Shown here in pieces: positions 1 to 18,526 of a stretch of DNA of 58,690 bases; positions within the stretch are counted from its first letter, which is position 1, and each line of letters opens with the position of its first letter. Source of the DNA: Arenibacter latericius DSM 15913 (lineage in GTDB: Bacteria; Bacteroidota; Bacteroidia; Flavobacteriales; Flavobacteriaceae); the NCBI RefSeq assembly GCF_000424985.1, contig NZ_AUKX01000037.1:1-58690 (forward strand). The letters are read 5' to 3'. The notes under the pieces were generated by a model. It was not told where the DNA came from and ran no database searches. It worked only from the letters and a program-made list of their open reading frames with translations. Position numbers and translations under genes: made by a program.

Positions 1-4
1 AACA

Positions 5-286
5 TTAATAGAGCTTTAGTAGCTTGCTGATCAATGGAAGTTGTGAGGTGTCCAATCGTAGCCGGACTCCATTAGGGTAAATCAATTCTATGCTTCCCGT
101 TATTTCCGATTTAGGATGGATGGCAACAAATCCCCCGCTCACGGATGCCTCCTCTTGTGCTTTCTTTTTCTTCCAGTAATAGAAGGTGGAGGGCAAAAGG
201 CCCTTTTCCTTGCAAAATTCTCTACCGTTAAGGGAACTGTCCTCAAATTCCTCGATAAGGGCAAACATTTTCTCTTCCTTACTCAT
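5..286 (-). CDS. IS66-type element accessory protein TnpA-like
   Basis: The 93-residue protein has the layout of the small first ORF of IS66-family elements. A short helical DNA-binding N-terminus carries the motif FCKEKGLLPSTFYYWKKK (residues 24-41), followed by a C-terminal segment ending in IELIYPNGVRLRL. In IS66 elements this gene precedes tnpB and the transposase; on this strand those would lie to the left, outside the window. No transposase is visible here, so I cannot tell whether the element is complete. Family assignment comes from motif recognition. Confidence 0.75.
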   Translation of the reverse strand: MSKEEKMFALIEEFEDSSLNGREFCKEKGLLPSTFYYWKKKKAQEEASVSGGFVAIHPKSEITGSIELIYPNGVRLRLDTSQLPLISKLLKLY

Positions 287-359
287 TATATACTAATTTA
301 TGGGCAAAGCTAGATGCAGGAAATTAAGTTAACAATATGTGTTTGGTGGGATGCATACG

Positions 360-530
360 GTGTAAAGGGGAGTCTCACCCCTAAACCTCTCACAGAACCG
401 TACGTGAACCTCTCGATTCATACGGCTCTTGTCATACAGTCGGTAGGCCTAAATAGTTAGACCAGTTTATATCCCAGTTCCCAATGGTAGAACAGATTTG
501 GATATGACTTTGTAATGTAGGACATTTATT
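360..530 (-). mobile_element. 3' remnant of a group II intron (domains V and VI, end of the intron ORF)
   Basis: Read on the minus strand, positions 428-395 form the 34-nt domain V hairpin (GAGCCGTATG, apical loop, CGTACGGTTC). It is followed by a domain VI-like hairpin (GGGGTGAGACTCCCC) ending near position 360. Upstream of domain V, an open frame reading NLFYHWELGYKLV and stopping at 459-457 resembles the C-terminus of an intron-encoded reverse transcriptase. No other RT domain lies between 530 and 776, so this is a 5'-truncated, inactive remnant. Its exact 5' break is unknown. Confidence 0.7.
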
Positions 531-793
531 AAAACAACCTAATATTATAATTAAAATAGATATATCTACCCTTAGTAAAGGAAACTCATTGTTATCTCCT
601 TCGGAAGTCCTAAAGACTCAACATTGATAACAATTCACCAGCCCATTTGGAAATACTGGAGCATCCTGACCCCTAAGCTATTTTCTCTCTGGTTTTTGTT
701 TATTTAATAGATACTATTAAATAAAATCCTATTTTCATCAATTAATAGGTCGTTTTAAAACGTACTGCCGGTAGTTTGTATTTAGAAAAAGCT

Positions 794-2047
794 ATGAGTA
801 AAACAATAAGATTAAACAAGGCTTTACGCGAATTAAATATCTCGCTAGATAGGGCCACCGAATTTCTTGCTTCAAAAGGTGAAAACATTGAGGCTAGACC
901 AACCACCAAATTGAACGAAAAACAATATAATCTACTTGTAAATCAATTTGAATCATTTAAAAATAAACGATTAAATATCGTATATAATTCAGAGCAAATA
1001 CAAAAGACCTTACAAGAATTAGCAAGGGTAATAGAAACATCCAATATTCAAAATTTAAACCAGGTACTAGAGACCAATTTAGATTCAACAATCTCAAAAA
1101 GACAATCGGTTTTAAATTTGACCAAAGCATTTAAAGATGGGAAATTGGTATTAGTTTTAGGTGCTGGAATATCTTTGGATTTTGGTATTCCAACTTGGAA
1201 TAGTCTTTTACAAAAATTAATGGTTCATACAATAGAAAAGGATAATGAAAAATCTAATCTTTTATCGAACTTATTTAATAAAATATTCACCCCAACCCCT
1301 CTTATTGCTGGTCGATATCTTCAGAATTATTTTGAGAATAACAATTCGTCATTTGAAAATATGGTAAGAGATGTTATCTATGAAAAAGTAAAGAAAGAAA
1401 CAAAATCACCACTATTAGAAGAAATAGTTAAACTATGTGTAGCACCTGGAAAGCGTCCAAATTTGGACTCCATAATAACTTATAATTTTGATGATATTCT
1501 AGAATACAAATTAGAAGAAACAGAACTGGATATTCCGTTCAAATCTATTTATGGCATTGGTATGGACGTTCGAAATGATGAATTACCAATATATCACGTT
1601 CACGGTTTTCTTCCTGAAAATAAAAAACTTGATAAACTAAACGCAATTACGTTTGGAGAGAGAAATTATCATCAGCAGTATTCAGATATTTATAGTTGGA
1701 ATAATATTGTTCAAATTAATAAATTCAGAGAAAACGCGTGTATATTTATTGGAAGTTCGCTGACCGACCCAAATATCCGAAGGCTTTTAGATATAGCCTT
1801 AAAACAAAAAGGTAATAATAGAAAACATCACTATATTTTCAAGAAAAAAATTAACAAGTTATCCCTAACTAGTAAAATTGAATTCGATGACTCTTCAAAA
1901 AAAGAAGATATATTAGATTTGCTAATAAAAATGTATGAACGTTTTGAGGAGAACGACTCCTCTTCCTTTGGTGTAAAAACAGTTTGGGTAAACGAATGGA
2001 ATGAAATACCTGAAATTCTAAAATCAATAAGAGAACACGCAACCTAA
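794..2047 (+). CDS. SIR2-like NAD-binding protein with an IF-2 N-terminal-type domain
   Basis: The protein is about 417 residues from ATG 794. I prefer this start over TTG 776 because the IF-2-like segment begins right there with MSKTIRLNKALRELNIS. Residues 1-55 resemble the N-terminal domain of Bacteroidota translation initiation factor IF-2 (SLDRATEFLASKG, then a KLNEKQYNLL helix). After a helical linker comes a SIR2_2-type Rossmann domain: VLVLGAGISLDFGIPTW (about residues 119-135), TYNFDD (about 229-234), YHVHG (about 267-271) and FIGSSLTDPN. SIR2 domains of this type in defence islands (Thoeris, DSR-like and related systems) consume NAD+ after phage sensing. That role here is inferred from the family and from the restriction locus next door. 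No membrane segment or signal peptide is seen. Confidence 0.8.
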   Translation: MSKTIRLNKALRELNISLDRATEFLASKGENIEARPTTKLNEKQYNLLVNQFESFKNKRLNIVYNSEQIQKTLQELARVIETSNIQNLNQVLETNLDSTISKRQSVLNLTKAFKDGKLVLVLGAGISLDFGIPTWNSLLQKLMVHTIEKDNEKSNLLSNLFNKIFTPTPLIAGRYLQNYFENNNSSFENMVRDVIYEKVKKETKSPLLEEIVKLCVAPGKRPNLDSIITYNFDDILEYKLEETELDIPFKSIYGIGMDVRNDELPIYHVHGFLPENKKLDKLNAITFGERNYHQQYSDIYSWNNIVQINKFRENACIFIGSSLTDPNIRRLLDIALKQKGNNRKHHYIFKKKINKLSLTSKIEFDDSSKKEDILDLLIKMYERFEENDSSSFGVKTVWVNEWNEIPEILKSIREHAT

Positions 2048-2318
2048 CTTTGGATTCTATGCAAAGTACCAATCCCTAACATGGGGTTCTCACAATAAGC
2101 CAATCACAAATTCCACGAAAATAATTCCAAGTGTAACCTTCACAAAAAGAATATGACAGTTGTAAAACTAATTTTTAGCTCAACATAAAACACCTTTCCC
2201 AGTTCATATTGATGGCACCAACCACCTTCTGGTATTGTAAGAAATATCAACTAATTCATACTCCCTACCTCCATTTTGTTTCGTATCTTTAACGGTTTAA
2301 TCAACCGCAATTTCATTT
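2048..2318. other. Intergenic region upstream of the WYL regulator
   Basis: This AT-rich, 271-nt stretch contains no convincing ORF. A TATCTTTA sequence about 30 nt before the regulator start is a possible -7 element, but no matching -33 element is clear. Nothing else is recognised. Confidence 0.3.
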
Positions 2319-3329
2319 ATGGCCATTACTAAAAATGCACTCATCAGGTATCATGCGCTAGATAGGTGTTTTAGCAATCCCGGCAAGAATTATGATATAA
2401 GCGCTTTGTTGGAGGAATGCAACAAGGATTTGTACGAAGCCAATCCAGATTCGGATGGCATACAACGCAGACAGCTCTATGACGATATTAAGTTTATGGA
2501 GTCATCCCAAGGCTGGTCCATAGACCTAGAAAAATTCAGAAATGGACGAAGGGTGTACTACCGGTATGCCGATCCCAATTTCTCCATAAAAAAGGAACCG
2601 ATCAACGAACTGGAAGCAGAGCAAATAAAGTCGGCCATGCTGATTCTAACGCGCTTTAAGGGACTCCCTCAATTTGAGTGGATCCACGAATTGTTGCCTA
2701 AACTGGATCAGACTTTTAAGCTATCTAATCAGTCGCAGGAAATTATGAGTTTTGAAAACAACGAGTTTTTAGAAGGTTTAGAGCATATTGCTCCGTTGTT
2801 CAAAGCCATCCTCTACAAACAGACCCTAAGCATCACCTATAAAAGCTTTAAGAGTGAGGAGGACACCGTACTTACCTTCTCCCCCTATCATTTAAAGCAA
2901 TACAACAATCGCTGGTTCTTGTTTGGGAAAAATGGTGATTATGAAAGCCTTACCAATCTGGCCTTGGACAGGATAGTAAAGATTGAAAACTCCAGCATCC
3001 CCTATATTGAAAACACGGAGGTAGATTTTAACGAGTATTTTGAAGACATCATTGGGGTGTCCAAATCGGCCGGAGCGGAGGAAGTGAAAATCGTATTACA
3101 GGCCGTGCCAGATCTAGCTCCTTATATAAAGACCAAACCCCTTCATGGATCGCAACGGACTATTGTTGAGAGCGATCAAGGATTTACCTTTTCTATACAG
3201 GTGATTCCTAATTACGAATTGGAAAAACAGCTGCTAGCTTTTGGAGAACAACTCAAAATATTGGAACCAGCAGAACTTAAGGAGAAAATTAAGCTTAGAT
3301 TACAACAAAGTCTTAACAATTTTGATTAG
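2319..3329 (+). CDS. WYL-domain transcriptional regulator of the restriction locus
   Basis: The 336-residue protein has an N-terminal winged-helix segment (about residues 1-75, including IQRRQLYDDIKFMES) and a central WYL domain. The WYL core is recognisable as FSPYHLKQYNNRWFLFGKN (about 190-208), followed by the LALDRIVKIE strand. WYL regulators bind small ligands or nucleic acid and often repress defence operons (BrxR/CapW-type). It lies 61 nt before hsdM on the same strand, so it probably controls the restriction genes. Length and layout are normal for the family. The ligand is unknown. Confidence 0.85.
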   Translation: MAITKNALIRYHALDRCFSNPGKNYDISALLEECNKDLYEANPDSDGIQRRQLYDDIKFMESSQGWSIDLEKFRNGRRVYYRYADPNFSIKKEPINELEAEQIKSAMLILTRFKGLPQFEWIHELLPKLDQTFKLSNQSQEIMSFENNEFLEGLEHIAPLFKAILYKQTLSITYKSFKSEEDTVLTFSPYHLKQYNNRWFLFGKNGDYESLTNLALDRIVKIENSSIPYIENTEVDFNEYFEDIIGVSKSAGAEEVKIVLQAVPDLAPYIKTKPLHGSQRTIVESDQGFTFSIQVIPNYELEKQLLAFGEQLKILEPAELKEKIKLRLQQSLNNFD

Positions 3330-3390
3330 TGCACTTCTGATGCACACAAAACCTATATATTTACCATCGCATTAAAATAACGAGTATTAT

Positions 3391-4929
3391 ATGAGTACAG
3401 GAGAATTAAAATCGCAGATAGACCAGATATGGAATACCTTCTGGACCGGGGGGATCTCCAATACCATTACTATTGTAGAACAACTCACCTACCTTATCTT
3501 CATTAAGGATTTGGACGAGACGGAAACCCGTAACGAACGTAAGGCCAAGCGCGGTTTTAGTTACACCCCCATCTTTGGGGAACATCAGCAAAACTTCCGA
3601 TGGAAGAACCTTAAGGAAATGGACGTAAACGATCGTCACAATATTTTTAGCAATACCGTGGATGGTATCTTTCCTTTTATACGTTCCTTAGGAAAGGAGA
3701 AAAGTTTGTTCAGCACCTATATGCAAGGCGCCTCCTTTGGTATTTCAAAACCAGTGGTATTGGATCAGGTGATGGAAAAACTGGAACGCATAGATATGAC
3801 CAACCAAGATACCAAGGGCGATATCTATGAGTATTTACTCTCCAAATTGGAAGGCGGGGGTACGGCCGGTCAATTTAGAACACCGCGTCATATCATTAAG
3901 CTCATGGTAGAGCTGATGAAACCTACGCTGGAAGATACCATCTGCGACCCATCCGCTGGAACTGCCGGTTTCTTGGTAGCTGCCAAGGAGTATATAGATA
4001 AGCACACCGAACTTACGGAGCTGGACAAATACAGCGATCATATCAACCAGACCATGTTCAACGGAACTGAGTTTGATGCTACTATGCTGCGTATTGCTTC
4101 CATGAACCTATACTTGCACGGAGTAGAGGAACCCAATATTGTGGATGTAGATGCGGTGAGCAAGGACAATACCGTTTCGGACGCCTATTCCTTGGTATTG
4201 GCCAATCCACCCTTTAAAGGCACCATAGACAAGGAGAGTATTGCACCCGGATTACAGAACGTTACCAAGACCACTAAAACAGAACTATTGTTTTTGGCCT
4301 TGATCTTGCGTCAATTAAAGACTGGTGGCCGTGCAGCCGTTATTGTTCCGGACGGGGTGTTGTTTGGCAGTGGCAAGGCTCATAAGAGCATCCGGCAGGA
4401 AATTGTGGCAAACAATAAGTTGGAAGCGGTGATCTCCATGCCTTCCGGGGTCTTTAAGCCCTATGCAGGAGTAAGTACCGCCATCATCATCTTTACCAAA
4501 ACAGGCTCTGGCGGAACGGACAAGGTGTGGTTCTACGATATGGTGGCCGATGGGAAGAGTTTGGACGACAAGCGAAACCTGTTGGTAGACCAGGAGCTTT
4601 TTGAGGCCTTTAGTTTTGGCGAAGGGGCCGAGGCCCTTACCGAAGCGGAGCAGAAAGCCCTGCACGATAATTTCAACCTGCCCGATATTATACGGCGTTA
4701 CCCTAACCGAAATTCGGATTCCGAAGCGAACCGAAAACGTACGGAACAGAGCTTTTTGGTACCGTTTAAGGAAATTAAGGAGAACGACTGGGACCTGAGC
4801 ATCAACCGCTATAAGGAAATCGTGTATGAAGAAGTGGAGTATGATGCACCAAAGGTGATTATTGAAAGAATAAAAACCTTGGAACAAGAAAAAGCCAAAT
4901 TATTGGACACTTTGGAAAAACAAGTATAA
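3391..4929 (+). CDS. hsdM: Type I restriction-modification methyltransferase subunit HsdM
   Basis: HsdM is the adenine-N6 methyltransferase subunit; with HsdS it methylates the recognition site and with HsdR it forms the restriction complex. This 512-residue protein has an N-terminal HsdM helical domain (about 8-140), then the SAM-binding motif DPSAGTAGFLVAA (from about residue 186) and the catalytic motif NPPF (about 272-275). A late motif reads PDGVLFGSGKAHKSIRQE. Its C-terminus is a coiled coil (ERIKTLEQEKAKLLDTLEKQ). Length is normal for the short HsdM class. The gene is followed directly by the hsdS reading frame. A TATATTTA sequence just upstream could be its own -7 element. Confidence 0.95.
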   Translation: MSTGELKSQIDQIWNTFWTGGISNTITIVEQLTYLIFIKDLDETETRNERKAKRGFSYTPIFGEHQQNFRWKNLKEMDVNDRHNIFSNTVDGIFPFIRSLGKEKSLFSTYMQGASFGISKPVVLDQVMEKLERIDMTNQDTKGDIYEYLLSKLEGGGTAGQFRTPRHIIKLMVELMKPTLEDTICDPSAGTAGFLVAAKEYIDKHTELTELDKYSDHINQTMFNGTEFDATMLRIASMNLYLHGVEEPNIVDVDAVSKDNTVSDAYSLVLANPPFKGTIDKESIAPGLQNVTKTTKTELLFLALILRQLKTGGRAAVIVPDGVLFGSGKAHKSIRQEIVANNKLEAVISMPSGVFKPYAGVSTAIIIFTKTGSGGTDKVWFYDMVADGKSLDDKRNLLVDQELFEAFSFGEGAEALTEAEQKALHDNFNLPDIIRRYPNRNSDSEANRKRTEQSFLVPFKEIKENDWDLSINRYKEIVYEEVEYDAPKVIIERIKTLEQEKAKLLDTLEKQV

Positions 4930-5131
4930 ATATGTTAAGAATCTTTACCTGTTTCGATTTCAGGTAAAGAGAATAAAATTATTTATACATGATGAACCTT
5001 TAGAAAAATTAAAAAGAATATCAGAATTAAAGTCTGAAAGCACAATCTTAAAAGTATTACCTATCAAAAATCTAACTAAAATATCACAATATATAGAGCA
5101 AGTAAGAGGAGTTTCATATGGTAAAGCTGAT

Positions 5132-6250
5132 GTGTCAGAAAAACCAATAGATGGATATATACCCATACTTAGATCAAATAACATTAAAAATTCCAATATA
5201 GACCTAGAGGATTTAGTATATGTGAACCCGTCAAGAGTTAAAAATAGGCAATTTCTTAGGTCGGGTGATATATTGATAACTGCTTCAACGGGAAGCATAA
5301 AAGTAATCGGAAAGAATGCATACTGCGTTAAAGATTATGATGCCTCTTTTGGTGCTTTTTGCAAAGTTGTTCGACCTAAAAATATTGAGGCGACTTATTT
5401 GAAACATATGTTTCAATCTCCTCAGTATTTTAGTTATATTCAGAATGTTGTTAATGGAGCTAATATTAATAATATTAAGAATGAGCATTTAGATAATTTC
5501 AAAATCCCCCTCCCCCCCCTTGCCACTCAAAAGCGCATCGCACAAATCTTGGATGATGCGGCGGCCCTGCGCGATAAAACCGCCCAACTCCTCAAAGAAT
5601 ACGACGCCCTAGCACAGTCTATCTTCTTGGAGATGTTTGGGGATCCGGTAACTAATCCGAAGGGGTGGGATTCAGAAACAATTAATAACTGTAGTAAGAG
5701 AATTCAAATCGGCCCATTTGGATCCCAATTACATCAGTCCGATTATCAAGATTTTGGTTTTTCTTTGGTTAATCCAACAGATATTATTGACTCTAAAATT
5801 AATATAAATAGATGTAGAAAAATAGATAAGAATAAATTTGATTCATTAACTAATTATCATTTAGAAATAGGGGATATTATTATGGCAAGGAGAGGAGATT
5901 TAAGTAAAATAGCTTTAGTCCAAGATAGAAATTTATTTTGTGGTACTGGAAGCCTTTATATTCGTTTCAATAATAGAATCATTCCAACTTTCTCAAAATA
6001 CTATATTTCGCATAGTTCAACTATATCAAAGCTATATGAAAAAGCAAGAGGTATTACCATGGCGAATTTAAATAAATCAATAATAAAAAATCTTGATATT
6101 ATAGTACCGCCAATAGACCTCCAAAACCAATTTGAGGAAAAAATTGCGTTGATAGAGCAGCAAAAGGTACTGGCCAAGCAGGAGTTGAAAGAAAGCGAGG
6201 ATTTGTTTAATTGCTTGTTGCAAAAGGCGTTTAAGGGGGAAATACAATGA
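5132..6250 (+). CDS. hsdS: Type I restriction-modification specificity subunit HsdS (5' end uncertain)
   Basis: HsdS recognises the bipartite target. The frame shows target-recognition domain 1, the central conserved region (IPLPPLATQKRIAQILDDAA, about residues 125-144, then a long helix to about 170), target-recognition domain 2 (GPFGSQLHQSDYQ onward) and the final helix (ENCLLQKAF-type end). The first usual start codon is GTG 5132, but the frame stays open upstream to about 4930 and encodes HsdS-like sequence such as IEQVRGVSYGKADV. The real protein is therefore probably longer, using a rare start or having lost its start by a frameshift near ATG 4932. The gene is more AT-rich than hsdM and hsdR, as is common for exchanged specificity genes. 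Confidence 0.85.
   Translation: MSEKPIDGYIPILRSNNIKNSNIDLEDLVYVNPSRVKNRQFLRSGDILITASTGSIKVIGKNAYCVKDYDASFGAFCKVVRPKNIEATYLKHMFQSPQYFSYIQNVVNGANINNIKNEHLDNFKIPLPPLATQKRIAQILDDAAALRDKTAQLLKEYDALAQSIFLEMFGDPVTNPKGWDSETINNCSKRIQIGPFGSQLHQSDYQDFGFSLVNPTDIIDSKININRCRKIDKNKFDSLTNYHLEIGDIIMARRGDLSKIALVQDRNLFCGTGSLYIRFNNRIIPTFSKYYISHSSTISKLYEKARGITMANLNKSIIKNLDIIVPPIDLQNQFEEKIALIEQQKVLAKQELKESEDLFNCLLQKAFKGEIQ
5506..5519 (+). repeat. C5-T-C8 homopolymer tract inside hsdS
   Basis: Five C, one T and eight C encode the IPLPPL motif at the junction of target-recognition domain 1 and the central region. One extra C would bring a TGA into frame at 5554-5556; one lost C would bring in a TAG at 5610-5612. 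Either slip yields a half-length HsdS with only the first recognition domain. Such tracts are known slippage sites in some hsdS genes (for example NgoAV). Here phase variation is only a possibility. Confidence 0.6.
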
Positions 6251-6675
6251 ACAATAAACAGTTAGCAATGATCAATGATGAACTTCTCTGATTAGGCTTG
6301 ACCGGTTTTAGAAATTGAGTTCATTCAGTGGCGCCCTTTTTGTTCCTTGTTTAAAAAAGAGTCAGGATAAGTATTAATCGGATAAAAAATAATTTTAATA
6401 TAAAGAAAACTAAAATAGGGTCAAGATGGCCGAGAAGAACGTTTAGCACAATTATTATCATTTGGAACATACGCCAGATGAGGTACTTATACCAAAGTCT
6501 AAAGATGACACATTTATTTGTGCACCTAAGGACACTACGGCAAGCAGCAAGCTTGTTATATGGTAAAGTAAGATGTTGTTCATAATTTGAGCTGTTATGT
6601 TTAAGACAGTTAATACAAAGATAACAATATTTATACCTGAAAAGAGTAGCGACATCGTAACCAGAAGTGGTGAAA
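6251..6675 (+). other. Noncoding region upstream of the reverse transcriptase
   Basis: This 425-nt gap separates hsdS from the RT inside an otherwise compact operon. It contains a 7-bp inverted repeat (ATGAACT at 6278-6284, AGTTCAT at 6318-6324). It also has one short frame from TTG 6462 to TAA 6566 (34 residues, starting MEHTPDEVLIPKSKDD) with protein-like composition but no recognised relatives. Defence RTs such as DRT2 and DRT9 are known to carry template noncoding RNAs directly upstream of the RT, so an RNA gene here is plausible. No sequence match to a known one was recognised. Confidence 0.35.
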
Positions 6676-8310
6676 ATGTCGAAAGAGCACTGTTCAATCA
6701 TAAGCCTGCTACTAGTAAATCTTGGCCCTTATTTTAAAACTTATATGGAAGATCATCCTTGGATTAAACTGAAAAAATATCCTCATATTGGTTTCCCTTT
6801 AGAACCTAAGGATATTTCATATTTAGAGAACTATATAACAAACCCTGTTATAATAGCAAAACATAGTTTTCTTCCTTTATTACACCGTACCATTTTTCAA
6901 AGAAAATTTAGAGCAAACACCAACGGCTTTAAAAATAAAAGTAAAAAGCGAAGGCGTGTACATTTAGAACCTAAAGCCCGTGAAATATTCTTTGCTGGTC
7001 ATTTTGATGCACAAATCTATTCGTACTACAGTTACATACTTTCAGAAAAATATGAAACTTTTCTAAAAACCAAAAGTTTTAAGAAAGCTATCGTTGCATA
7101 CAGAAAAATTGAAATTGAAGGCAAAAAGGATAAACACAAGTGCAATATAGATTTTGCATTAGAAGCCTTTCAGTTTATTAAGAATAATAAAGAAAAAGAG
7201 CTTACTGTTATTGTTGCAGATATAACTAAATTCTTTGATAATTTAGATCACAAAATTCTTAAACAAAAATGGTCAGAAGTTTGGGATGCTTCAAAAACAT
7301 TACCTAAAGATCACTACAGAGTGTACAAGTCTCTAATCAATATGAGATATGTAAACGAGGACTTATTATTTAGAAATTATAAGGACAGGATATGGGTTAA
7401 AACGTACATAGAGAACGATTCAAAAAAATCCCAAAAGCGGCAAAAAAGTATTAAGCACAAACGATATTTAAAAGATAATAACGCCATTGCCTATTGCGAT
7501 AAAACTGATTTTTTCAAAAACAGTTTAAACTTAATTACAAAATCCACAAGGTCAGAAGGAATACCGCAAGGAACTGCGCTTAGTGCAACATTAGCCAATA
7601 TTTATATGATGGATTTTGATCAAGCAGTTCAAGATTTTATAGATAGTGATAATGTAAAAGGATTTTATCAGAGGTATAGCGACGATTTAATTATAGTCAT
7701 CCCGAGGGAATTTCAAGAAGAAACCATAAAACGTCTGCGTTCATTGGTATACAATAAAGTAAAACTAGAAATACATACGGACAAAACAAAGGTGTACCAG
7801 TTTCAGGAAGTCAACGGTACATTTAAAGGTTTTGAAGTTGATGAATTAACAGGAGAAAAAACCAACAAAGAATTGGAGTACTTAGGTTTTGAGTATAATG
7901 GACAAAGAGCAATTTTAAAAACGGCTGGCTATTCAAAATTCTATAGAGCGATGAAACGATCCTTCAAACGATCGACATCCCTAGCCATTAACGCCAAAAG
8001 CACTGATGATAAAATTCATAAAAGCGCGTTATATAAAAGGTTCACTTATAAAGGAGCAAAGCGTCGCAAGCTATATACGCCAGATCCTCTAAATCCTAAT
8101 AAGTTCAAAGAAAGTTTTCGCTATGATTGGGGTAATTATCTAAGCTATGTAAATAAGGCTAATGATGCTTTCAGGCATTTCAATCAAGGAGATCAAATCA
8201 AAAGACAGTCCAGAAAGGCCTGGTCAAACTTTCATGTTTTAATGGTTAAATCCCTTAATAAAATTGAAACAAAAAAGAAGTTATCTTCTTCATATAAAAA
8301 GAAAAGCTAA
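6676..8310 (+). CDS. Defence-type (UG/DRT-like) reverse transcriptase within the hsd locus
   Basis: The protein is about 544 residues from ATG 6676; GTG 6667 is an alternative start. Numbered from ATG 6676, the palm motifs are all present: motif A DITKFFDNLDH (about 182-192), motif B GIPQGTALSATLANIYM (about 295-311), catalytic YSDD (about 334-337) and the LEYLGF motif E. Before the palm is the conserved block FFAGHFDAQIYSYYSYIL. There is no maturase or HNH domain as in group II intron proteins, and no retron-type short layout. This fits the unknown-group/DRT class of antiphage RTs. The exact DRT type is not resolved; DRT2-like is my best guess. It sits between hsdS and hsdR, a position that suggests co-operation or a nested defence module. 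The C-terminus is very basic. Confidence 0.85.
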   Translation: MSKEHCSIISLLLVNLGPYFKTYMEDHPWIKLKKYPHIGFPLEPKDISYLENYITNPVIIAKHSFLPLLHRTIFQRKFRANTNGFKNKSKKRRRVHLEPKAREIFFAGHFDAQIYSYYSYILSEKYETFLKTKSFKKAIVAYRKIEIEGKKDKHKCNIDFALEAFQFIKNNKEKELTVIVADITKFFDNLDHKILKQKWSEVWDASKTLPKDHYRVYKSLINMRYVNEDLLFRNYKDRIWVKTYIENDSKKSQKRQKSIKHKRYLKDNNAIAYCDKTDFFKNSLNLITKSTRSEGIPQGTALSATLANIYMMDFDQAVQDFIDSDNVKGFYQRYSDDLIIVIPREFQEETIKRLRSLVYNKVKLEIHTDKTKVYQFQEVNGTFKGFEVDELTGEKTNKELEYLGFEYNGQRAILKTAGYSKFYRAMKRSFKRSTSLAINAKSTDDKIHKSALYKRFTYKGAKRRKLYTPDPLNPNKFKESFRYDWGNYLSYVNKANDAFRHFNQGDQIKRQSRKAWSNFHVLMVKSLNKIETKKKLSSSYKKKS

Positions 8311-8336
8311 AATTAAAGATAAAACCCATTGTTACT

Positions 8337-8460
8337 GGCAAAGATTGGATATAAGGGGGCACCATTCTTTGTCATAAAGACCCGTATTTGATCCTTAGTA
8401 GGAGGTCATGAGTCAGCTACCAGCCCCTACAACCTTGGGGAAGGTTGTTTAATCTTTTTT
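8337..8460 (+). ncRNA. Candidate structured RNA between the RT gene and hsdR
   Basis: Three stem-loops follow one another. The first pairs 8337-8348 with 8362-8373 (12 positions, one mismatch and one G-T pair). The second pairs GTAGG at 8398-8402 with CCTAC at 8426-8430. The third is the terminator hairpin at 8430-8447. A fourth imperfect hairpin lies at 8482-8507. The density of structure starts about 27 nt after the RT stop codon and ends in a U-run, as expected for the 3' part of a transcript or for a discrete RNA that partners the RT. No known RNA family was recognised. Confidence 0.4.
8430..8460 (+). terminator. Intrinsic terminator after the reverse transcriptase
   Basis: A perfect 7-bp stem (CAACCTT, loop GGGG, AAGGTTG) is followed by TTTAATCTTTTTT. 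This would end transcripts from hsdM-hsdS-RT before hsdR. A TATATTTA sequence at 8536-8543 could be the -7 element of a separate hsdR promoter. Confidence 0.7.
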
Positions 8461-8563
8461 AGTAGCGGAATGGACGCGGGACTACAGCTTGCCTGCTATA
8501 GTAGGAAACAAATTACTAAATTCTTATAAATACCGTATATTTAGTCTTTTATTACCTTAGTTT

Positions 8564-11500
8564 ATGAATACCAACTTTCAATTTCTAGAAGAGGAGTTTT
8601 CTACCTTCTTCGATAGAGCATCCAAGGCAGAACAATTGGTGATTACGGATCCCCGCACCTCTTTGTTGTACAGTCGTATGGCTTTGGAGGAAGCCATCAA
8701 CTGGATGTATGCCCATGATGCAGAATTGGAAAAACCTTACGATACAAGCTTAAACAGCTTGATGATGAACCATGAGTTTAAGGCTCAATTCAACCATAAA
8801 CTATACAACGAACTCCACATCATAAGAAAAGCGGGGAACCTGGCTGCCCACAACAAAGCTGTGAATGATGTGGACTCCCACAAATCCATTGATGCTCTCT
8901 TCTATTTTGCCAAATGGTTTGCAAAATCGTACAGTCAGGAACCCCTAGGGACCATTGGTATTTTTAATTTTGATTACATCCCTAGAACAGGGGCGAATAC
9001 GCTTTCTAAAAGGCAAATTGAACAGCTGCAGCAAAAACTGGATAAAGAATTAAGCAAGCACCAAGAGCAGCTAAAGGAAAAAGAGGAAGAACGACTCAAA
9101 CTTGCGGAAAAGAACCAACTCTTTCAACAACAAATAGAAGCCTTACAGGCACAAATTGAAGCCAATAAGGTAAAAGCCAATACCCAGGACGAGGTACAGC
9201 ATCCAAGGAATGAGGCAGAAACCCGAAAATACCTTATAGACGTGGCCCTGCGTGAGGCTGGCTGGGATTTGTCTGGGGTAAATGACAAGGAATACAAGGT
9301 GAACCATATGCCCAAGGCTACCAACCGTAGCGAAACTGGTTATGTAGACTATGTGCTCTGGGACGATGATGGGCTACCATTGGCATTGGTAGAAGCTAAA
9401 AAGACCTTGGAAAGTGCTTCCAAAGGCGAAAATCAAGCACAGCTCTATGCAGATAGTTTAGAGAAAATGTACGGCCGCCGTCCGGTAATGTACTATAGTA
9501 ATGGCTATGAGACCTATCTCTGGGACGATCAGTTTTATAAACAGGCAAGACCGGTACACGGATTTTATACCAAGGCAGAATTACAAACTCTCATGTTCCG
9601 CCGTAAACACCGTAAGGATATCCGTACCGCCCCTATAGACACCGATATAGCCGGACGTACCTATCAGATGCGCTCCATAAAGAGTATTGCGGAACACTTT
9701 TCCGGGTACGATAAAAGTACAGGAAAACTCATTGGAACCAATAGAGGGGCTTTATTGGTTTTGGCAACCGGGACCGGAAAAACACGGACGTCCATCGCCT
9801 TTTCTAAATTGATGTTGGAGTGCAACTGGGCTAAACGCATCTTGTTTTTGGCCGACAGGATAAGCCTGGTGGAACAGGCCAAGCGGAACTTTGTTAAATT
9901 CTTGCCACAGCATGCCAGTGTTAACCTTTTGGAAGAAAAGGACAACCCCGATGCCAGGATTGCGTTCTCTACCTACAAAACCATGATAGGGCTAATAGAC
10001 GGGAGCCGCTCGGACGAAGGGAGGTTCTATGGAGGAGGTCATTTTGATCTGGTGATTGTGGATGAAGCACACCGTTCCATCTATAAGAAATACCAAGCTA
10101 TTTTTGAATACTTTGATGCCTTGTTTTTAGGACTTACGGCCACCCCAAAAAATAATATAGACAAGAACACCTATCACGTTTTTGGCCTGCCAGACAAGTC
10201 CCCTACCGATGCCTATACCTATGAGGAAGCGGTTCGGAACAAACATTTGGTTCCCTACAGATCCATAGCCGTACCTACTAAATTCCTACGGGAAGGGATA
10301 AAATACCAAGACCTGTCCGAAGAAGAAAAGGAAGCCTTTGAGAAGGAAATATTGGATGGCGAGGAAGCCACCGGAAACGAATGGATTTCCTCTAGTGAGT
10401 TAAACGACTGGCTGTTCAATAAGCCAACCGCCATTGAAACCCTGCGATACCTGGAAACGCACGGGATTAAAAAACGAGGCGGGGACGAATTGGGGAAGAC
10501 CATTATCTTCGCCAAAAATAAAAAACATGCGCATTTCCTAAAGGAGATGTTCTTGGAACTGGACAAAGAAAGGTATGGGAACGATTATGTAAAAGTCATT
10601 GCCCATAGCGAACCCAAATCAAAGGAATTCATCAATAGGTTCTGTGATGAGGAAAAAGACCGTTTGCCTCAGATCGCGATTTCCATAGACATGATGGATA
10701 CCGGGATAGACGCCCCTAGCTGTGTGAATCTAGTATTTTACAAACCTGTAAAATCCTATACCAAGTTTTGGCAAATGATAGGGCGTGGCACACGACTCCG
10801 ACCCGATCTTTTTGGCGTTGGAAAGGATAAGACCCATTTCCTCATATTCGATCTTTGTCAGAATTTTGAATTTTTTGATGAAAATCCCGAGGGCATCGAA
10901 ACCACTGCACAGAAAAGTTTAACCGAAATCCTTTTCGGCCTACGCTTGCAGTTGGCCCAATACCTAAAGAGCGATCAGTTTAAGGACCAGAAGGATTTGC
11001 AAGACTACCGCCAAGAATTATTGGATGGACTACATGGGGAGATCGCGTCTTTGGATATCACCAGATTCGATGTGAAGATGAAATTGCAGATCGTACATGA
11101 ATTTGGCAACAAAAACAGGGAAGTATGGAACCATTTGTCAAAAAAAGACTGTAAACAGATCGAAGACGAACTAGCGCCTTTAGTGAAGCCCAAAAAAGGG
11201 GATTCGGACTTGGCACGCTACTACGATAAAATTCTTTATTCCCTCATTGCCAAAAGACTGGAGACGCCCAATAGCGAGGCCTTTGTAAACGATTTGGTTG
11301 TGCCCATCACCAAAGTAGCCGGCACGTCTAAAAAACTTTTGAAAAAAACGACTATTCCGGCCGTAAAATCCAAGGAACCTTTGATTAAACTACCCCTAGA
11401 GGAATCCTTCTGGAAGATAGATGGGATTGCCCATTTGGAAAAATTGCGTAAAGGAGTCCGGGAATTGGTAAAATATATAGATCCTGTGGATCAAAGGTAT

Positions 11501-12058
11501 GTTACCACCGATTTTGAGGATGCCATTTTGGAAGATAAGGTGGTTATCCGCGACATGGCTAGCGAGCCACAAGAATCCTATGCTTCCCCCTTCCAGAACA
11601 ACCTGCACCGTTTGGAAGAATTGATAAGGGAAAACAAGGACCATGTTACTATAGAAAGGATACGGAAGGGAGAGCAAATTACCAAGGAGGAATTACAGGC
11701 CCTGGAACAAATTTTATTTACGGATAAACTAAGCAAGGAATCCATTGAGAAAGAGCTGGGCAAGGAGTTTAATTTAGTCCAATTCGTCATCGCCCTAATG
11801 GGCTTGAGCGCAGAAAAAGTAGACGAAGCCTTCTCCCAATTTATCAATGACTATAAATTGAATGCGATCCAAATTCAGTTCCTGGATACCATAAAATTGT
11901 TCCTGACCAAAAACGGAAAAATAGATCCCACCAAATTATACGATTCCCCCTTTAAAAACTATCACAATATGGGAATAGATGGGGTCTTTAACGAGCAACA
12001 GGCAGACATCATTTTTAAGATCGTAGCCGATTTCAATACCCATCAACAAGAGGCATAG
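8564..12058 (+). CDS. hsdR: Type I restriction enzyme HsdR (nuclease-translocase subunit)
   Basis: HsdR cuts DNA after ATP-driven translocation by the HsdM-HsdS complex. This 1164-residue protein begins with a DUF4145-like helical domain (about 1-130), then a coiled coil (about 145-210). The PD-(D/E)XK nuclease is seen as YVDYVLWDDDG followed by LVEAKK (about 260-280). The helicase core has LATGTGKTRTSI (about 400-411), VDEAHRS (about 499-505), LTATPKN and the late motif QMIGRGTRLRPD. The C-terminal part resembles the EcoEI-type C-domain. All catalytic motifs are intact. Base composition matches hsdM rather than the RT or hsdS. A strong terminator follows 45 nt after the stop codon. Confidence 0.95.
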   Translation: MNTNFQFLEEEFSTFFDRASKAEQLVITDPRTSLLYSRMALEEAINWMYAHDAELEKPYDTSLNSLMMNHEFKAQFNHKLYNELHIIRKAGNLAAHNKAVNDVDSHKSIDALFYFAKWFAKSYSQEPLGTIGIFNFDYIPRTGANTLSKRQIEQLQQKLDKELSKHQEQLKEKEEERLKLAEKNQLFQQQIEALQAQIEANKVKANTQDEVQHPRNEAETRKYLIDVALREAGWDLSGVNDKEYKVNHMPKATNRSETGYVDYVLWDDDGLPLALVEAKKTLESASKGENQAQLYADSLEKMYGRRPVMYYSNGYETYLWDDQFYKQARPVHGFYTKAELQTLMFRRKHRKDIRTAPIDTDIAGRTYQMRSIKSIAEHFSGYDKSTGKLIGTNRGALLVLATGTGKTRTSIAFSKLMLECNWAKRILFLADRISLVEQAKRNFVKFLPQHASVNLLEEKDNPDARIAFSTYKTMIGLIDGSRSDEGRFYGGGHFDLVIVDEAHRSIYKKYQAIFEYFDALFLGLTATPKNNIDKNTYHVFGLPDKSPTDAYTYEEAVRNKHLVPYRSIAVPTKFLREGIKYQDLSEEEKEAFEKEILDGEEATGNEWISSSELNDWLFNKPTAIETLRYLETHGIKKRGGDELGKTIIFAKNKKHAHFLKEMFLELDKERYGNDYVKVIAHSEPKSKEFINRFCDEEKDRLPQIAISIDMMDTGIDAPSCVNLVFYKPVKSYTKFWQMIGRGTRLRPDLFGVGKDKTHFLIFDLCQNFEFFDENPEGIETTAQKSLTEILFGLRLQLAQYLKSDQFKDQKDLQDYRQELLDGLHGEIASLDITRFDVKMKLQIVHEFGNKNREVWNHLSKKDCKQIEDELAPLVKPKKGDSDLARYYDKILYSLIAKRLETPNSEAFVNDLVVPITKVAGTSKKLLKKTTIPAVKSKEPLIKLPLEESFWKIDGIAHLEKLRKGVRELVKYIDPVDQRYVTTDFEDAILEDKVVIRDMASEPQESYASPFQNNLHRLEELIRENKDHVTIERIRKGEQITKEELQALEQILFTDKLSKESIEKELGKEFNLVQFVIALMGLSAEKVDEAFSQFINDYKLNAIQIQFLDTIKLFLTKNGKIDPTKLYDSPFKNYHNMGIDGVFNEQQADIIFKIVADFNTHQQEA

Positions 12059-12102
12059 AATTATTTTAGGCACTATCCGCAGAAGAAATTTGTTAAAAAC
12101 TT

Positions 12103-12141
12103 AGAAGGGGCTGATCGTTACCAAAGGTCAGCCCCTTCTTT
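12103..12141 (+). terminator. Strong intrinsic terminator after hsdR
   Basis: The 12-bp perfect stem AGAAGGGGCTGA (12103-12114) pairs with TCAGCCCCTTCT (12128-12139) around a 13-nt loop, followed by TTG. It closes the restriction locus. Confidence 0.8.
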
Positions 12142-12447
12142 GTGGATGAAAATCCCTTATATCCCAACTTCCATAGGGCAACATCCTTGACTAATCATAG
12201 CAAACACCCCTAATTTTCAATTATTCCAATTGGGTGCAGATAGAGTGCACGCAACAGGTTCATATTTGCAGTAATCATCTTAAACACTGTAACTATGAAA
12301 CATTTTTTAAATCACTCAACCCTTCATTTACCTACTAGCTATAACAACTTACTAAGAGTGAGGTAACACTACTATAGGAACTGCTCCCCTAAATGGGACA
12401 AATACATCTGCATTCAATTTAAAATCCAAACATAAATAAAGCCTACT
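12142..12447 (+). other. Intergenic region with a possible promoter and a short ORF
   Basis: A CATATTTGC sequence near 12261 resembles a Bacteroidota -7 element. A 23-codon frame starting ATGAAACATTTTTTAAATC at 12295 follows, ending at TAA 12364-12366. Whether the short frame is translated is unknown. Nothing else is recognised. Confidence 0.25.
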
Positions 12448-13137
12448 ATGAAAAAACTAGTAATTGCAATCCTTTCTTTAACCGCCACCAGCGTAATGGC
12501 GCAAAAACAACTCGACGAACTTTCCTTCGAAGACACCCAGAACGCAGCCATATTCGAAAATATCCGGAACAACACCAAAATTCTAAAATATACCGCTGCA
12601 GATGGCTCTGTATTGAAGGTGGGCGACACCCTGGTGATCGGATTCCCGTCGGGAAGCATAACCGCTACTACAGCTGTAGGCGGCGGGTACCGGGTTGGAG
12701 CCGCCAAAGCACGTTCTAAGACCAAGAGCAATTTCCAGACCATTATCATGGGCAAACCAGCAGGTTTTGGCAACATCATGTCGGCTATGGCCGGAGAGAC
12801 ACCGAACAACGCAGGGGCCGAAATGCAAGGGGAAATTGTGGTGATAGCCGAAATGTCTGTCTTCCACAAGGGAAGTAGAAAGAAACCCTTGGCCTTAACC
12901 GTCCTTTTGGGAGAACCCAATGGAAGGGCCTTTGGAATCAACAAATACCTATCCGTTACGGACTATGAAAAATCCGTCCTCGCCGGGGAAATTAAAAGCA
13001 TCAATGCCCCCTTGACCCGGGAAGAGGCCATCGCTAAATTAAAAGAATCCAAGGATCTGTTAGACCTGGGAATATTAGATGAGGAAGCCTACCAAGCCTT
13101 GAAAAAAGAATTGACCCCGCTAATCGTTTCGGAATAA
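12448..13137 (+). CDS. Secreted protein with a C-terminal SHOCT-like segment, function unknown
   Basis: The 229-residue protein begins with a Sec signal peptide (MKKLVIAILSLTATSVMAQ, cleavage likely after AMAQ-type end). The central part, rich in Gly and Ala with GGGYRVGAAKARSKTKS, has no recognised family. The C-terminus (EEAIAKLKESKDLLDLGILD, then an alpha-helix) resembles the short SHOCT motif, which often marks oligomerising or membrane-associated proteins. It lies two nucleotides before the next frame and is probably co-transcribed with it. No defence or transfer role can be read from the sequence. Confidence 0.65.
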   Translation: MKKLVIAILSLTATSVMAQKQLDELSFEDTQNAAIFENIRNNTKILKYTAADGSVLKVGDTLVIGFPSGSITATTAVGGGYRVGAAKARSKTKSNFQTIIMGKPAGFGNIMSAMAGETPNNAGAEMQGEIVVIAEMSVFHKGSRKKPLALTVLLGEPNGRAFGINKYLSVTDYEKSVLAGEIKSINAPLTREEAIAKLKESKDLLDLGILDEEAYQALKKELTPLIVSE

Positions 13138-13184
13138 AGATGGGAACAATGGCAGAAAAAAAACTAAAGAATAATAATTTAAAA

Positions 13185-13922
13185 ATGAGAAAGATGAAAA
13201 AAATATTGGTATTGGTGGTATTCACCTTTATAAGCATGAGCACTATGGCGCAGGACAACTATAGGGACGTTGTGTATTTAAAGAATGGCAGTGTGCTCCG
13301 TGGGGTCATTACGGAACAACACCCAAACGTGTCCATTAAACTAGAGACGGCAGACCAGAGCATTATTGTATTCCAGATGGAGGAGATCGAAAAGATCGCC
13401 AAAGAGCCGTAAACGCAAAAAAGGGAACCCAAACGACCTAATTCCGGAATGGAGTCAGGATATGTAGGTAGTATTGAACTGGGATATCAGGCGGGGTTTT
13501 GGGACTATGGAATGGATCGCTGGAAACTGAATGTCGTCCAAAGCTATGCCTTTAGCCCAATAGTATCCTTAGGGGTTGGAACTGGGCTACGGTATTATCG
13601 AGAGTCGGAGGCCGCTCTCATACCGTTTTTTGCCAATGCCAGAATAAATTTAATGGATGCCCCTTCCACACCCTTTATCGCCTTTGATATTGGCTACAGC
13701 CTAGATGCCACCTATAGGTTTAAAGGTGTGGGCATGCTACTGAGTCCCACTTTGGGGGCCCGTTTTACGACCTCTGAGGGAACCACTTTCACTATAGGGG
13801 TAGGGTATGAGATGCAAAAAATGGATTTTTTATATATGTATAATAATGGGGAGTACTACGATATAGGATCCTCCTCCGAAAATTCTGGGGCCCTAAGCAT
13901 CAGTGTAGGGATATTGTTCTAA
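13185..13922 (+). pseudogene. Outer-membrane beta-barrel-type protein split by one nonsense codon
   Basis: Two segments lie in the same reading frame: 13185-13412 (signal peptide MKKILVLVVFTFISMSTMAQ and a DVVYLKNGSVLRG domain) and 13449-13922 (beta-rich, GFWDYGMDRWKLNV to SVGILF). Only a single TAA at 13410-13412 separates them; the 36 nt between them hold no other stop. Full-length proteins with this N-terminal strand motif followed by a small barrel are common in Bacteroidota, so one ancestral gene is likely. The N-terminal half would give a 76-residue secreted peptide. The C-terminal half lacks a signal peptide. A sequencing error or real decay are both possible. Confidence 0.65.
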
Positions 13923-13998
13923 AGACAACGATTCTTGCGCCTTTTTAAAATGAATACAGATAAAAAAAATAAAACAATATAACTTAAACCTTTTTAAA

Positions 13999-14469
13999 AT
14001 GAAAAAATATGTAATTCTACTAGGCATTTTACTTTCTTCATGTTACACCTATGAGAGAGTTCCAATAACCATGGAACCTTTTGATAGGACCATAATGGTA
14101 GAGGGAATTAAGAACGATTTATTTGTAAAGGCTAATAATTGGATGGTAGAAATTTTCACTAGCCCCAAATCCGTCATTCAATTTTCGGACAAAGAAGCTG
14201 GCGTAGTTACTGGTCGATATCTTTTTAAGGATTTTGGATCAACGATAGTAATGGGGGAAGTGGTCGATTTTGGACAGATTTATGCTATCATTAAATTAAA
14301 TGTCAAAGATGGAGCCACGAAAATCACTATAGACGCAGGAAATTTCACCGAAATACATAGCAAAACAAATGAGAGCTACCGATATACTAAAGCAAAGGCA
14401 GTTCAAGAGATACAAGTTCTAATGGACAACTACGAACAATATTTAAAAACTACTGATATCTCTTTTTAA
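13999..14469 (+). CDS. DUF4468-like lipoprotein
   Basis: The 156-residue protein has a lipoprotein signal peptide with lipobox LLSSC (Cys about residue 15), predicting a membrane-anchored protein. The following region, VEGIKNDLFVKANNWMVEIF to TGRYLF, matches the pattern of the DUF4468 (TBP-like fold) family of Bacteroidota lipoproteins. No function is established for that family. It follows the split barrel gene by 76 nt on the same strand. Confidence 0.65.
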   Translation: MKKYVILLGILLSSCYTYERVPITMEPFDRTIMVEGIKNDLFVKANNWMVEIFTSPKSVIQFSDKEAGVVTGRYLFKDFGSTIVMGEVVDFGQIYAIIKLNVKDGATKITIDAGNFTEIHSKTNESYRYTKAKAVQEIQVLMDNYEQYLKTTDISF

Positions 14470-14827
14470 AAAGAAATAATAAAAATGGAGGGCTATATCA
14501 AGGATCAGAATCGACACTCACCTTAAAACAGGGTTGTAAATGACTGAATGTGAAGCAGTAGCTTGTTATATGTATTGATCATATTTATAACATATAAGAT
14601 GTTATGCCTACCTATTCCTGGCACAAAACGAAACGAGATATGGTTGAACAATTATTTGTTTTTTCAGCCTCCTAGTTAAACTAAATGTTTTTAGGACAGT
14701 TCAATTCCCGCGGCAAAGAACTTTAATTTATCAAGAATAAGCCTGCTTCAGTAAAAGATAAACAAGGTATATATCAGTAAACTTTTATGTACCTATGTAC
14801 CAGTTACCTTAAAAAAAACACGACTAA
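14470..14827. other. Intergenic region with inverted repeats
   Basis: A perfect 7-bp inverted repeat lies at 14587-14593 and 14599-14605 (ATAACAT, ATGTTAT). It is preceded by a longer imperfect one (GTTATATG around 14564, CATATTTATAAC at 14580-14591). These may be a terminator or regulatory structure. No ORF is supported. Confidence 0.3.
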
Positions 14828-16240: not shown

Positions 16241-16602
16241 ATCATTAAAAATCTGTGGAATGAATTTACCTCTAGCGAAAAGATTTCTATTAAAAAAGGG
16301 ATTCTAAATGCTGATAATGGAAAACTGACTTCTCACTCAAACGTGTGAGAAATTTCATGAAAAGTGGTTATAAAATACTGTGGGGAAAGGCTGTAGCTAA
16401 GCTATAGTATTAAAGTTTTGTCTAGTTGTATGATGCCGCCAAATCAGTTTAATTTTGCATTTGAAACTTAAACAAATAAGCACCAGCAAACAGCTTTGAC
16501 TTGGCGGAGCAGGAATGGACATTGCTTTCTTTCTCTCTCACCGCCTATATCTCGGGCTTAGGCAAACATTTATAACTCTTCGCATATTCCTTTTTAGAAA
16601 AA
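16241..16602. other. Intergenic region between the KAP gene and the AbiE operon
   Basis: A 7-bp stem (TTCTCAC at 16330-16336, GTGAGAA at 16345-16351) could end KAP transcripts. A wider inverted repeat pairs CCGCCAA at 16436-16442 with TTGGCGG at 16501-16507. No ORF of interest is seen. Confidence 0.3.
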
Positions 16603-16636
16603 GTTGTCAAGTATATTGCGCAATATACTTGACAAC
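16603..16636. promoter_or_regulatory. Perfect 34-bp palindromic operator of the AbiE operon
   Basis: The arms GTTGTCAAGTATATTG and CAATATACTTGACAAC are exact reverse complements around a central CG. AbiEi antitoxins are known to bind inverted repeats in their own promoter and repress transcription. The right arm supplies the TTG of the -33 element of the promoter that follows. Confidence 0.75.
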
Positions 16637-16658
16637 AACCTACACTTTCTTATATTTG
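16629..16658 (+). promoter_or_regulatory. Promoter of abiEi-abiEii
   Basis: TTG at 16629-16631 and TATATTTG at 16651-16658 match the Bacteroidota pattern (TTTG/TTG, about 19-bp spacer, TAnnTTTG). The -33 element lies inside the palindrome, so antitoxin binding should block RNA polymerase. The first ATG follows at 16682. Confidence 0.65.
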
Positions 16659-16681
16659 CATTCGATAAACAGTACTTATCA

Positions 16682-17407: not shown

Positions 17408-17408
17408 T

Positions 17409-18383: not shown

Positions 18384-18526
18384 CATTTACGGATTTCGTC
18401 TGCTAGATATTTGTTTCCTTATGGCACCCTGTCTATTGTATATTATCATTTATGGATATTACTGCCACCATATATACTGCAATTCAAAAAAACAAAATCA
18501 CATTTCTAATTCGATCCCTAAAATAC

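Follow-up and report, generated by a model that had tools for sequence, protein, structure and literature searches.

A DRT2-type reverse transcriptase nested in a type I restriction locus of Arenibacter latericius, with a structured upstream RNA and a predicted concatemer-encoded gene

What does a complete reverse transcriptase (RT) gene do between the specificity and restriction genes of a type I restriction locus? The locus lies in a 58,690-nucleotide stretch of Arenibacter latericius DSM 15913 (contig NZ_AUKX01000037.1, positions 1 to 58,690, forward strand), called the window here, in which the plus-strand gene order is WYL regulator, hsdM, hsdS, RT, hsdR. A sequence-only reading of the window had offered two answers: a two-layer system in which the RT senses or backs up restriction, or a DRT module that uses the hsd locus as a carrier. 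We now consider it very probable that the gap between hsdS and hsdR holds, as cargo, a DRT2 (UG2) anti-phage module consisting of a non-coding RNA (ncRNA) and the RT, with a concatemer-encoded protein, Neo, under a promoter at the repeat junction.

The gene itself was delimited as follows.

6667-8310, plus strand: RT open frame without interruption, between HsdS and HsdR
6745..8310, plus strand: DRT2/UG2 reverse transcriptase (family profiles, relatives' starts, solved chain); 521 residues, starting MEDHPWIKLKKYPHIG..., active site YSDD

Profiles and alignment confirmed that the RT is complete, that it lies on the plus strand between hsdS and hsdR and that its motif A (ADITKFFDNLDHKIL), motif B (PQGTALSATLANIYM) and YSDD are intact. 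The three motifs are in register with those of a solved DRT2 chain, YSDD standing opposite YCDD. The start had to be moved. Candidate starts at 6667 and at 6676, the latter being the position from which the sequence-only reading let the gene run, were ruled out by alignment with relatives (L033, L034, L044-L046) and with the solved DRT2 chain, which agree on the ATG at 6745 (MEDHPWIK). The protein therefore has 521 residues, and 6676-6744 becomes the 3' part of the ncRNA. The suggested assignment to the UG/DRT class was borne out when the profile search was run: the PADLOC Drt2 profile scored 432 bits (7e-130), among the sequences of solved structures DRT2 chains (9c0i and others) matched at E 2.6e-43, the alignment beginning at residue 2 once the start is corrected, and the best NCBIfam model was likewise Drt2. 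Judged by its sequence, the RT is thus a DRT2/UG2 enzyme.

One scan of genome contigs gave three close relatives, in Arenibacter nanhaiticus (L032, 89% identity), an Algibacter metagenome-assembled genome (L033, 73%) and Gelidibacter salicanalis (L034, 72%). Further relatives, from 74% down to about 30% identity, came from searches of 395 genomes of the phylum, 397 of the family and 395 of the class. Matches at E <= 1e-20 were present in 28/397 family and 12/395 class genomes, the own genome counted, which has one such RT plus one weak partial RT match (E 4e-5, 31%). One scan of viral contigs yielded two pattern matches, neither of them a relative, and the 14 records found in a plasmid collection were all below 60% identity. 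Weak RT matches (E 1e-8 and above) were not taken in. Excluding 13 of 51 loci that had no N-terminal start motif, some of which were examined later, left 38 upstream regions. Once the repeat unit described below had been seen in the first four loci, a set of 16 was chosen from the 38 for the similarity of their RTs (41-100% identity in the best segment).

The 5' flank of the RT, taken in the sequence-only reading to be noncoding, is a conserved, covarying structured ncRNA.

6417..6744, plus strand: ncRNA, ends approximate, comprising terminal stem P1, 5' hairpin, template and 3' scaffold up to the RT start (conservation, fold, covariation)
6417..6424, plus strand: 5' arm of terminal stem P1, AGGGTCAA, pairing with 6722-6729 (covariation)
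6722..6729, plus strand: 3' arm of terminal stem P1, TTGGCCCT (covariation)
6458..6481, plus strand: hairpin immediately before the template, its arms at 6458-6465 and 6474-6481; 8 pairs, 5 changed on both sides

Upstream sequences of the four closest loci align in blocks around a variable centre, and the blocks recur across the 16 loci. An alignment of nine sequences predicted 40 consensus pairs, 17 of which have changes on both sides, with 96.1% of cells paired; the structure was predicted from that same alignment, which favours it. In stem P1 five of the 8 pairs have changes on both sides and every lettered cell is paired. None of 500 shuffles reached the observed pairing on four of five measures, and slid controls paired at 31-46%. 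The ncRNA of the window folds better than 100/100 shuffles (z -4.86), and no Rfam family was matched at gathering score in this region. A TAnnTTTA box, a candidate element of a dedicated ncRNA promoter, stands upstream of the ncRNA in all five loci that are nested in hsd genes (see below), with no convincing -33 element alongside.

The 5' flank is therefore not empty. The 3' flank has a terminator-like hairpin and no significant overall fold.

8429..8448, plus strand: terminator-like hairpin in the RT-hsdR spacer (pattern match only)

Between 6100 and 8700, 4 terminator-like patterns were found vs 1.7 expected. A structured RNA in the spacer (8311-8563) was rejected as a candidate: its energy looked strong, but z was -1.64 and 13/200 shuffles were equally good.

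The variable centre of the ncRNA contains a unit bounded by a short direct repeat.

6489..6632, minus strand: template unit of 144 nucleotides (nt), which when reverse-complemented and concatenated gives the predicted neo, with the repeat NIVIFVLTVLNITAQIMNNILLYHITSLLLAVVSLGAQINVSSLDFGI
6489..6493, plus strand: direct repeat copy 1, ATACC, template 5' end
6633..6637, plus strand: second copy of the direct repeat, ATACC, directly following the template on its 3' side; presumably the place of re-annealing in template jumping
6581..6583, minus strand: ATG predicted to start Neo, 32 nt downstream of the -7 box and with A at -3

Reverse-complemented and concatenated, the template of the window has two endless frames, 0 and 1, of which frame 1 is common to the relatives and gives a predicted Neo of hydrophobic 48-residue repeats. 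With boundaries set across the 16 loci by aligned ATACC or ATTC-type words, the units measure 126-156 nt, all 16 lengths are divisible by three and antisense frame 1 is open in all 16. Per sequence, frame 1 stays open in 0.7-8% of dinucleotide shuffles; the 16 loci are not 16 independent trials, since their sequences are related. In a scan of all column pairs the antisense strand reached 16/16 open units and the sense strand at most 11/16. Among six near pairs, no stop ever arises in frame 1, whereas differences at stops occur in the other frames in all six pairs or in five of them. The hydrophobicity (GRAVY) of the Neo repeat exceeds the mean of shuffled open frames at every locus of the set (z 1.1-4.2). 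Published Neo repeats are likewise biased to hydrophobic codons. The first in-frame ATG follows the -7 box by 12-32 nt in 15/16 loci assigned one (32 in the window), the boxes of L033, L034 and L043 having been assigned by hand. The earlier suggestion that a neighbouring ncRNA serves as template thus gains a conserved covarying RNA, a direct repeat and an open antisense unit, and an unannotated RT flank can hold a gene invisible to ordinary open reading frame (ORF) finding.

Expression of such a gene would require a promoter. The main sigma factor of Bacteroidota reads TTTG / TANNTTTG, and elements of this kind face each other across the repeat junction.

6616..6623, minus strand: -7 box TATCTTTG (TAnnTTTG) of the predicted junction promoter, near the start of the complementary DNA (cDNA)
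6500..6503, minus strand: -33 position of the junction promoter, TTTA, 20 nt upstream of the -7 box only after concatenation

The arrangement TTTG-N20-TAnnTTT spans the junction in 10/16 units, compared with 45/16,000 shuffles, 0/16 sense strands and 0/16 single units, and the -33 position is TTTG in 11 loci of the set. The window and L032 have TTTA-N20-TATCTTTG there, a perfect -7 but an imperfect -33. A joint rule of promoter, 4-nt direct repeat, length and open frame picked out 11 of the 38 upstream regions, none of their reverse strands (0/38) and 2/760 letter shuffles; a looser form gave 18/38, 1/38 and 4/380 shuffles, respectively. As a positive control, a sigma-70 rule with a 3-nt repeat (CAA) recovered an endless 132-nt unit in all three of three near-identical Pseudomonas DRT2 loci, and the alternative boundary TG gave no endless unit. 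Since a promoter that exists only in the concatenated form matches the host lineage, we regard it as evolutionary evidence for transcription of the cDNA.

How the module may work follows from analogy with Klebsiella DRT2, from which we infer RNA binding, infection-triggered cDNA synthesis, template jumping, second-strand synthesis and Neo toxicity. The RT would bind the ncRNA and, on infection, copy the 144-nt template at 6489-6632. From the ATACC at the template 5' end it would jump back to the identical ATACC at the 3' side and so generate a tandem-repeat cDNA. After second-strand synthesis, each repeat junction would set a -33 region 20 nt before the TATCTTTG -7 box. The resulting promoter of Bacteroidota type, absent from the genomic order, would drive an endless messenger RNA, and the hydrophobic 48-residue Neo repeats encoded by it would lead to arrest of the infected cell.

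Several results weigh against this interpretation or its generality. The RT scored 314.5 bits with NF041746, the NCBIfam Drt2 equivalog, under the curated cut-off of 390, and we therefore do not claim it as a member of that model. The window was missed by both joint searches because its -33 is TTTA and not TTTG. In the ncRNA, further pair types do not exceed those in shuffles (179/500). The locus L052 has neither a -7 box nor a matching 3' repeat word. The neo frame shows no excess of synonymous substitutions (1 synonymous and 5 not between the window and L032, and likewise in five other pairs), so that no amino-acid conservation is shown for Neo. When 14 loci not used in setting the rule were put through the looser joint search, only L071 and L013 matched, L071 on the reverse strand too; this outside test is weaker than the aligned 16-locus set. 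The four outside loci nearest by RT identity (L146, L004, L141 and L071) were examined singly. L071 fits, with a 114-nt unit, a 5-nt repeat ATTTC and CTTG-N20-TAACTTTA. L004 fits with a repeat of 3 nt, its 126-nt unit being open in two frames, and L141 gives 146 nt with its first boundary and an open 141-nt unit with a second boundary of a 3-nt repeat. In L146, the nearest of them, both ATACC words are present, but their distance of 140 nt breaks the frame, even though the unit has a TATATTTG box and reads stop-free; L146 may be decayed or misassembled, or may prove that the length rule is not general. The more distant RGYPHF clade has an antisense bias (antisense vs sense 9/15 vs 4/15, 7/8 vs 4/8 and 4/4 vs 3/4), but neither its template ends nor a promoter could be located. 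L053, L054 and L005 fit a 159-162-nt unit with TTG-N20-TAnnTT; as they were partly chosen by the open-frame criterion and L005 gives a 132-nt unit as well, they are consistent with the unit and do not prove it.

The question of the hsd genes was approached through the genomic context of the homologues. The host locus consists of the following genes.

3391..4929, plus strand: hsdM of the host type I locus (family profiles)
5132..6250, plus strand: hsdS of the host type I locus; GTG 5132 as listed, frame open further upstream (ORF list, family profiles)
8564..12058, plus strand: hsdR of the host type I locus (family profiles)

Each of the five RTs found at >=72% identity (window, L032, L033, L034 and L043/L086) occupies the hsdS-hsdR gap in the orientation of the hsd genes, and zero, one or two other genes separate it from hsdR; in L043 the contig starts within hsdS, and the L033 stretch stops where hsdR begins. 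The nested RTs form one clade among the 38 RTs (100/100; one change, 0/500 label shuffles as low), and the nesting has thus been kept across at least three named genera. Searching 47 homologue regions with the Hsd proteins of the window and L034 gave 5 nested loci, 9 others with an hsd match above 60 bits and 33 with none; some regions stop at contig ends, distant Hsd types can be missed, and the 33 include three near-identical Pseudomonas loci. In L087 the RT is directly behind hsdM-hsdS of another type I system, in L097, L098, L110 and L111 it is behind hsdR and hsdM, and in L075, L076, L082 and L093 the hsd match is otherwise placed. The Clostridia and Lachnospiraceae loci L036 and L039-L042 stand outside the context count, and the wide-context survey did not take in the partial matches (L067, L069), L074 or the loci added later (L141, L143, L144, L146).

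In a search of 299 family genomes for the HsdR of the window, the hsdS-hsdR gap was inspected at 11 places (L128-L138) besides the window and G543. None of these 11 gaps has a DRT2 match, 10 carry ORFs of >=90 codons and the gap of L138 is about 60 bases. The cargo of this slot in related type I loci is varied and may include unknown defences. The WYL regulator upstream of hsdM (2319-3329) has counterparts, in that a WYL match is also found upstream of hsd in L032, L129, L136 and L138.

Alternative explanations concern both the nature of the RT and its product. That a group II intron or retron RT sits in the locus by chance is scarcely conceivable. The RVT_1 domain is common to all these enzymes, and weak matches to the group II intron model TIGR04416 (maturase, 74 bits) and the retron model NF038233 (St85, 43 bits) exist, but they are far under the cut-offs of 300 and 235 and under the Drt2 score. 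Rfam at gathering scores over positions 1-20000 placed no intron RNA beside the RT, where a DRT2-type ncRNA is present. Both origins were ruled out on these grounds, and the clustering with intron proteins that the sequence-only reading had named as contrary evidence is not what the family scores indicate. The sole Rfam match in that range is a group II intron RNA (RF00029, 48.4 bits) on the minus strand at 360-430, far from the RT. It could also be argued that the ncRNA is a template whose product acts untranslated, in the way of DRT9 poly-dA and DRT10 repeats, the open frame being a by-product of composition. Other UG families do make non-coding repeats (PMC12483538, PMC12632851), and substitutions in the neo frame have no bias towards synonymous sites. 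Nevertheless, an open frame together with a multiple of three in 16/16 loci at lengths from 126 to 156 nt, the asymmetry between antisense and sense strands and the correct order of promoter and in-frame ATG make an untranslated product highly improbable, and a coding concatemer remains our preferred interpretation.

A different role for the nested RT would be to guard restriction, as PrrC does in EcoprrI: DRT2 would be restrained by HsdMSR, or by its transcription, and set free by phage anti-restriction. The same slot and strand in the five closest relatives, which form one clade over at least three named genera, fit such a role, and genes embedded in type I loci have precedents in prrC and darTG2 (PMC3874165, PMC12255303). 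We nevertheless find it improbable. No hsd match above 60 bits was found in 33/47 homologue regions, the slot carries other genes in 10/11 related loci, the nested RTs, at 514-531 residues, are not longer than the 11 RTs of the 16-locus set that are not nested (507-572), and in the window a terminator-like pattern separates RT and hsdR. A gene family tied to hsd genes is typical of PrrC; the embedding is found here and the family tie, in view of the 33/47 regions, is not. The proposed tabulation of homologues against hsd genes had a divided outcome: the five closest are all nested, yet most regions have no hsd match. The regions without a match and the other cargo in the slot make hsd look like merely a carrier of the DRT2 module, the second of the two original suggestions, as judged from context only. 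Independence of the RT from HsdMSR is the simpler reading, not a proved one. The first suggestion, an RT that senses or backs up restriction, has so far gained no support; Klebsiella DRT2 protects Escherichia coli as ncRNA plus RT (PMC12039810).

The AT-rich composition of the RT had been called unlike that of the hsd genes. In 500-base windows the G+C content of the RT is 29-35%, below that of hsdM (45-50%) and hsdR (41-46%). The RT is not unlike all hsd genes, however, because hsdS is itself AT-rich (30-40%).

The junction promoter may have been changed within the nested lineage. The junctions of L033, L034 and L043 read TTGACA-N17-TATATT, 11/12 to the sigma-70 consensus with exactly 17 nt of spacing, at the same place. 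This pattern arose in 0, 1 and 4 of 5,000 shuffles, respectively (5/15,000 together); it was spotted after the fact, during a control run. These three loci are close kin and may therefore represent one event, and the similarity could be due to chance. L033 and L043 also read TATATTGC, which fits TAnnTTGY, a box that in Flavobacterium psychrophilum belongs to a probable alternative sigma class (PMC9723704). We tentatively raise the possibility, doubtful as yet, that DRT2 retunes its cDNA-only promoter, the Bacteroidota -33/-7 type (TATCTTTG) being kept in the window and L032 and switched to the sigma-70 type in three of the five nested members. The main sigma factor of these hosts reads a sequence other than the rebuilt TTGACA-N17-TATATT, and the switch, if real, would amount to a choice of polymerase, by way of an alternative or phage-supplied sigma factor, made by a gene absent from the genome. 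This would come close to the unproved published prediction that some DRT2 systems rebuild phage-specific promoters (PMC12039810).

Other features of the window include a SIR2-type protein (ThsA/LmuA-like, Pfam SIR2_2) at 776-2047, upstream of hsdM, a KAP-family P-loop NTPase at 14828-16240 and, at 16604-18383, a DUF6088 protein followed by an AbiEii toxin-type nucleotidyltransferase, which probably form an AbiE-like pair. KAP-family P-loop NTPases are often seen in defence regions. Genes of a relaxase, a TraG ATPase, a ParA-like protein and a tyrosine integrase are distributed over 18527-48655. The window looks like a conjugative element with a defence block, E1-E2 ATPase and RND efflux genes. 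On the minus strand at 27658-32073, an AcrB-type RND pump and an outer-membrane efflux protein domain are fused in a single frame of 1471 residues, a combination that seemed unusual.

A literature search, with most subscription papers and supplements outside its reach, found no title or abstract opening on Bacteroidota Neo units or -33/-7 junction promoters; published supplementary tables may already hold some of these loci. Tang et al. note that annotation of Neo is harder in divergent DRT2 clades, which suggests possible other mechanisms (PMC11100668), and Wilkinson et al. speculate that diverse DRT2 systems yield quite different cDNA and rebuild phage-specific promoters (PMC12039810). The sequences described here suggest that the hidden-gene mechanism is also used by one Bacteroidota branch, in which the jump word and the unit lengths differ and the promoter is that of the phylum itself.

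With Klebsiella DRT2 (PMC12039810, PMC11100668) the module shares a UG2 RT with YxDD, an ncRNA upstream of the RT and a central template with a short direct repeat. Further common features are a unit divisible by three, an endless antisense hydrophobic ORF and a start codon in each repeat. A promoter rebuilt only at the repeat junction may be another; the one predicted in the window has a perfect -7 box but an imperfect -33 (TTTA). The Klebsiella protein has 425 residues and the present one 521, the template is 120 nt there and 144 nt here, and the repeats are ACA and ATACC. The junction promoter of the Klebsiella system is TTGACA-N17-TATAAT in contrast to the Bacteroidota -33/-7 type of the window, and nesting in hsd genes is a feature of the present locus. 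DRT9 and DRT10 are similar in having a UG-class RT, an ncRNA template and a repetitive cDNA (PMC12483538, PMC12632851). Their products are non-coding poly-dA and short tandem repeats, respectively, whereas the unit here is long and predicted to be coding.

In its position the module resembles prrC, the defence gene of a guard protein that lies within the type I hsd operon of EcoprrI (PMC3874165, PMC12707154). PrrC, however, is a tRNA nuclease, which the restriction enzyme keeps sequestered. DarTG2 of the RRDM island also lies between hsdS and hsdR, in a slot called a potential hotspot (PMC12255303); it is a toxin-antitoxin pair in E. coli and not an RT. The nesting of the DRT2 module in hsd genes provides a natural pair with which to ask whether embedded defences act with the host system or merely travel with it.

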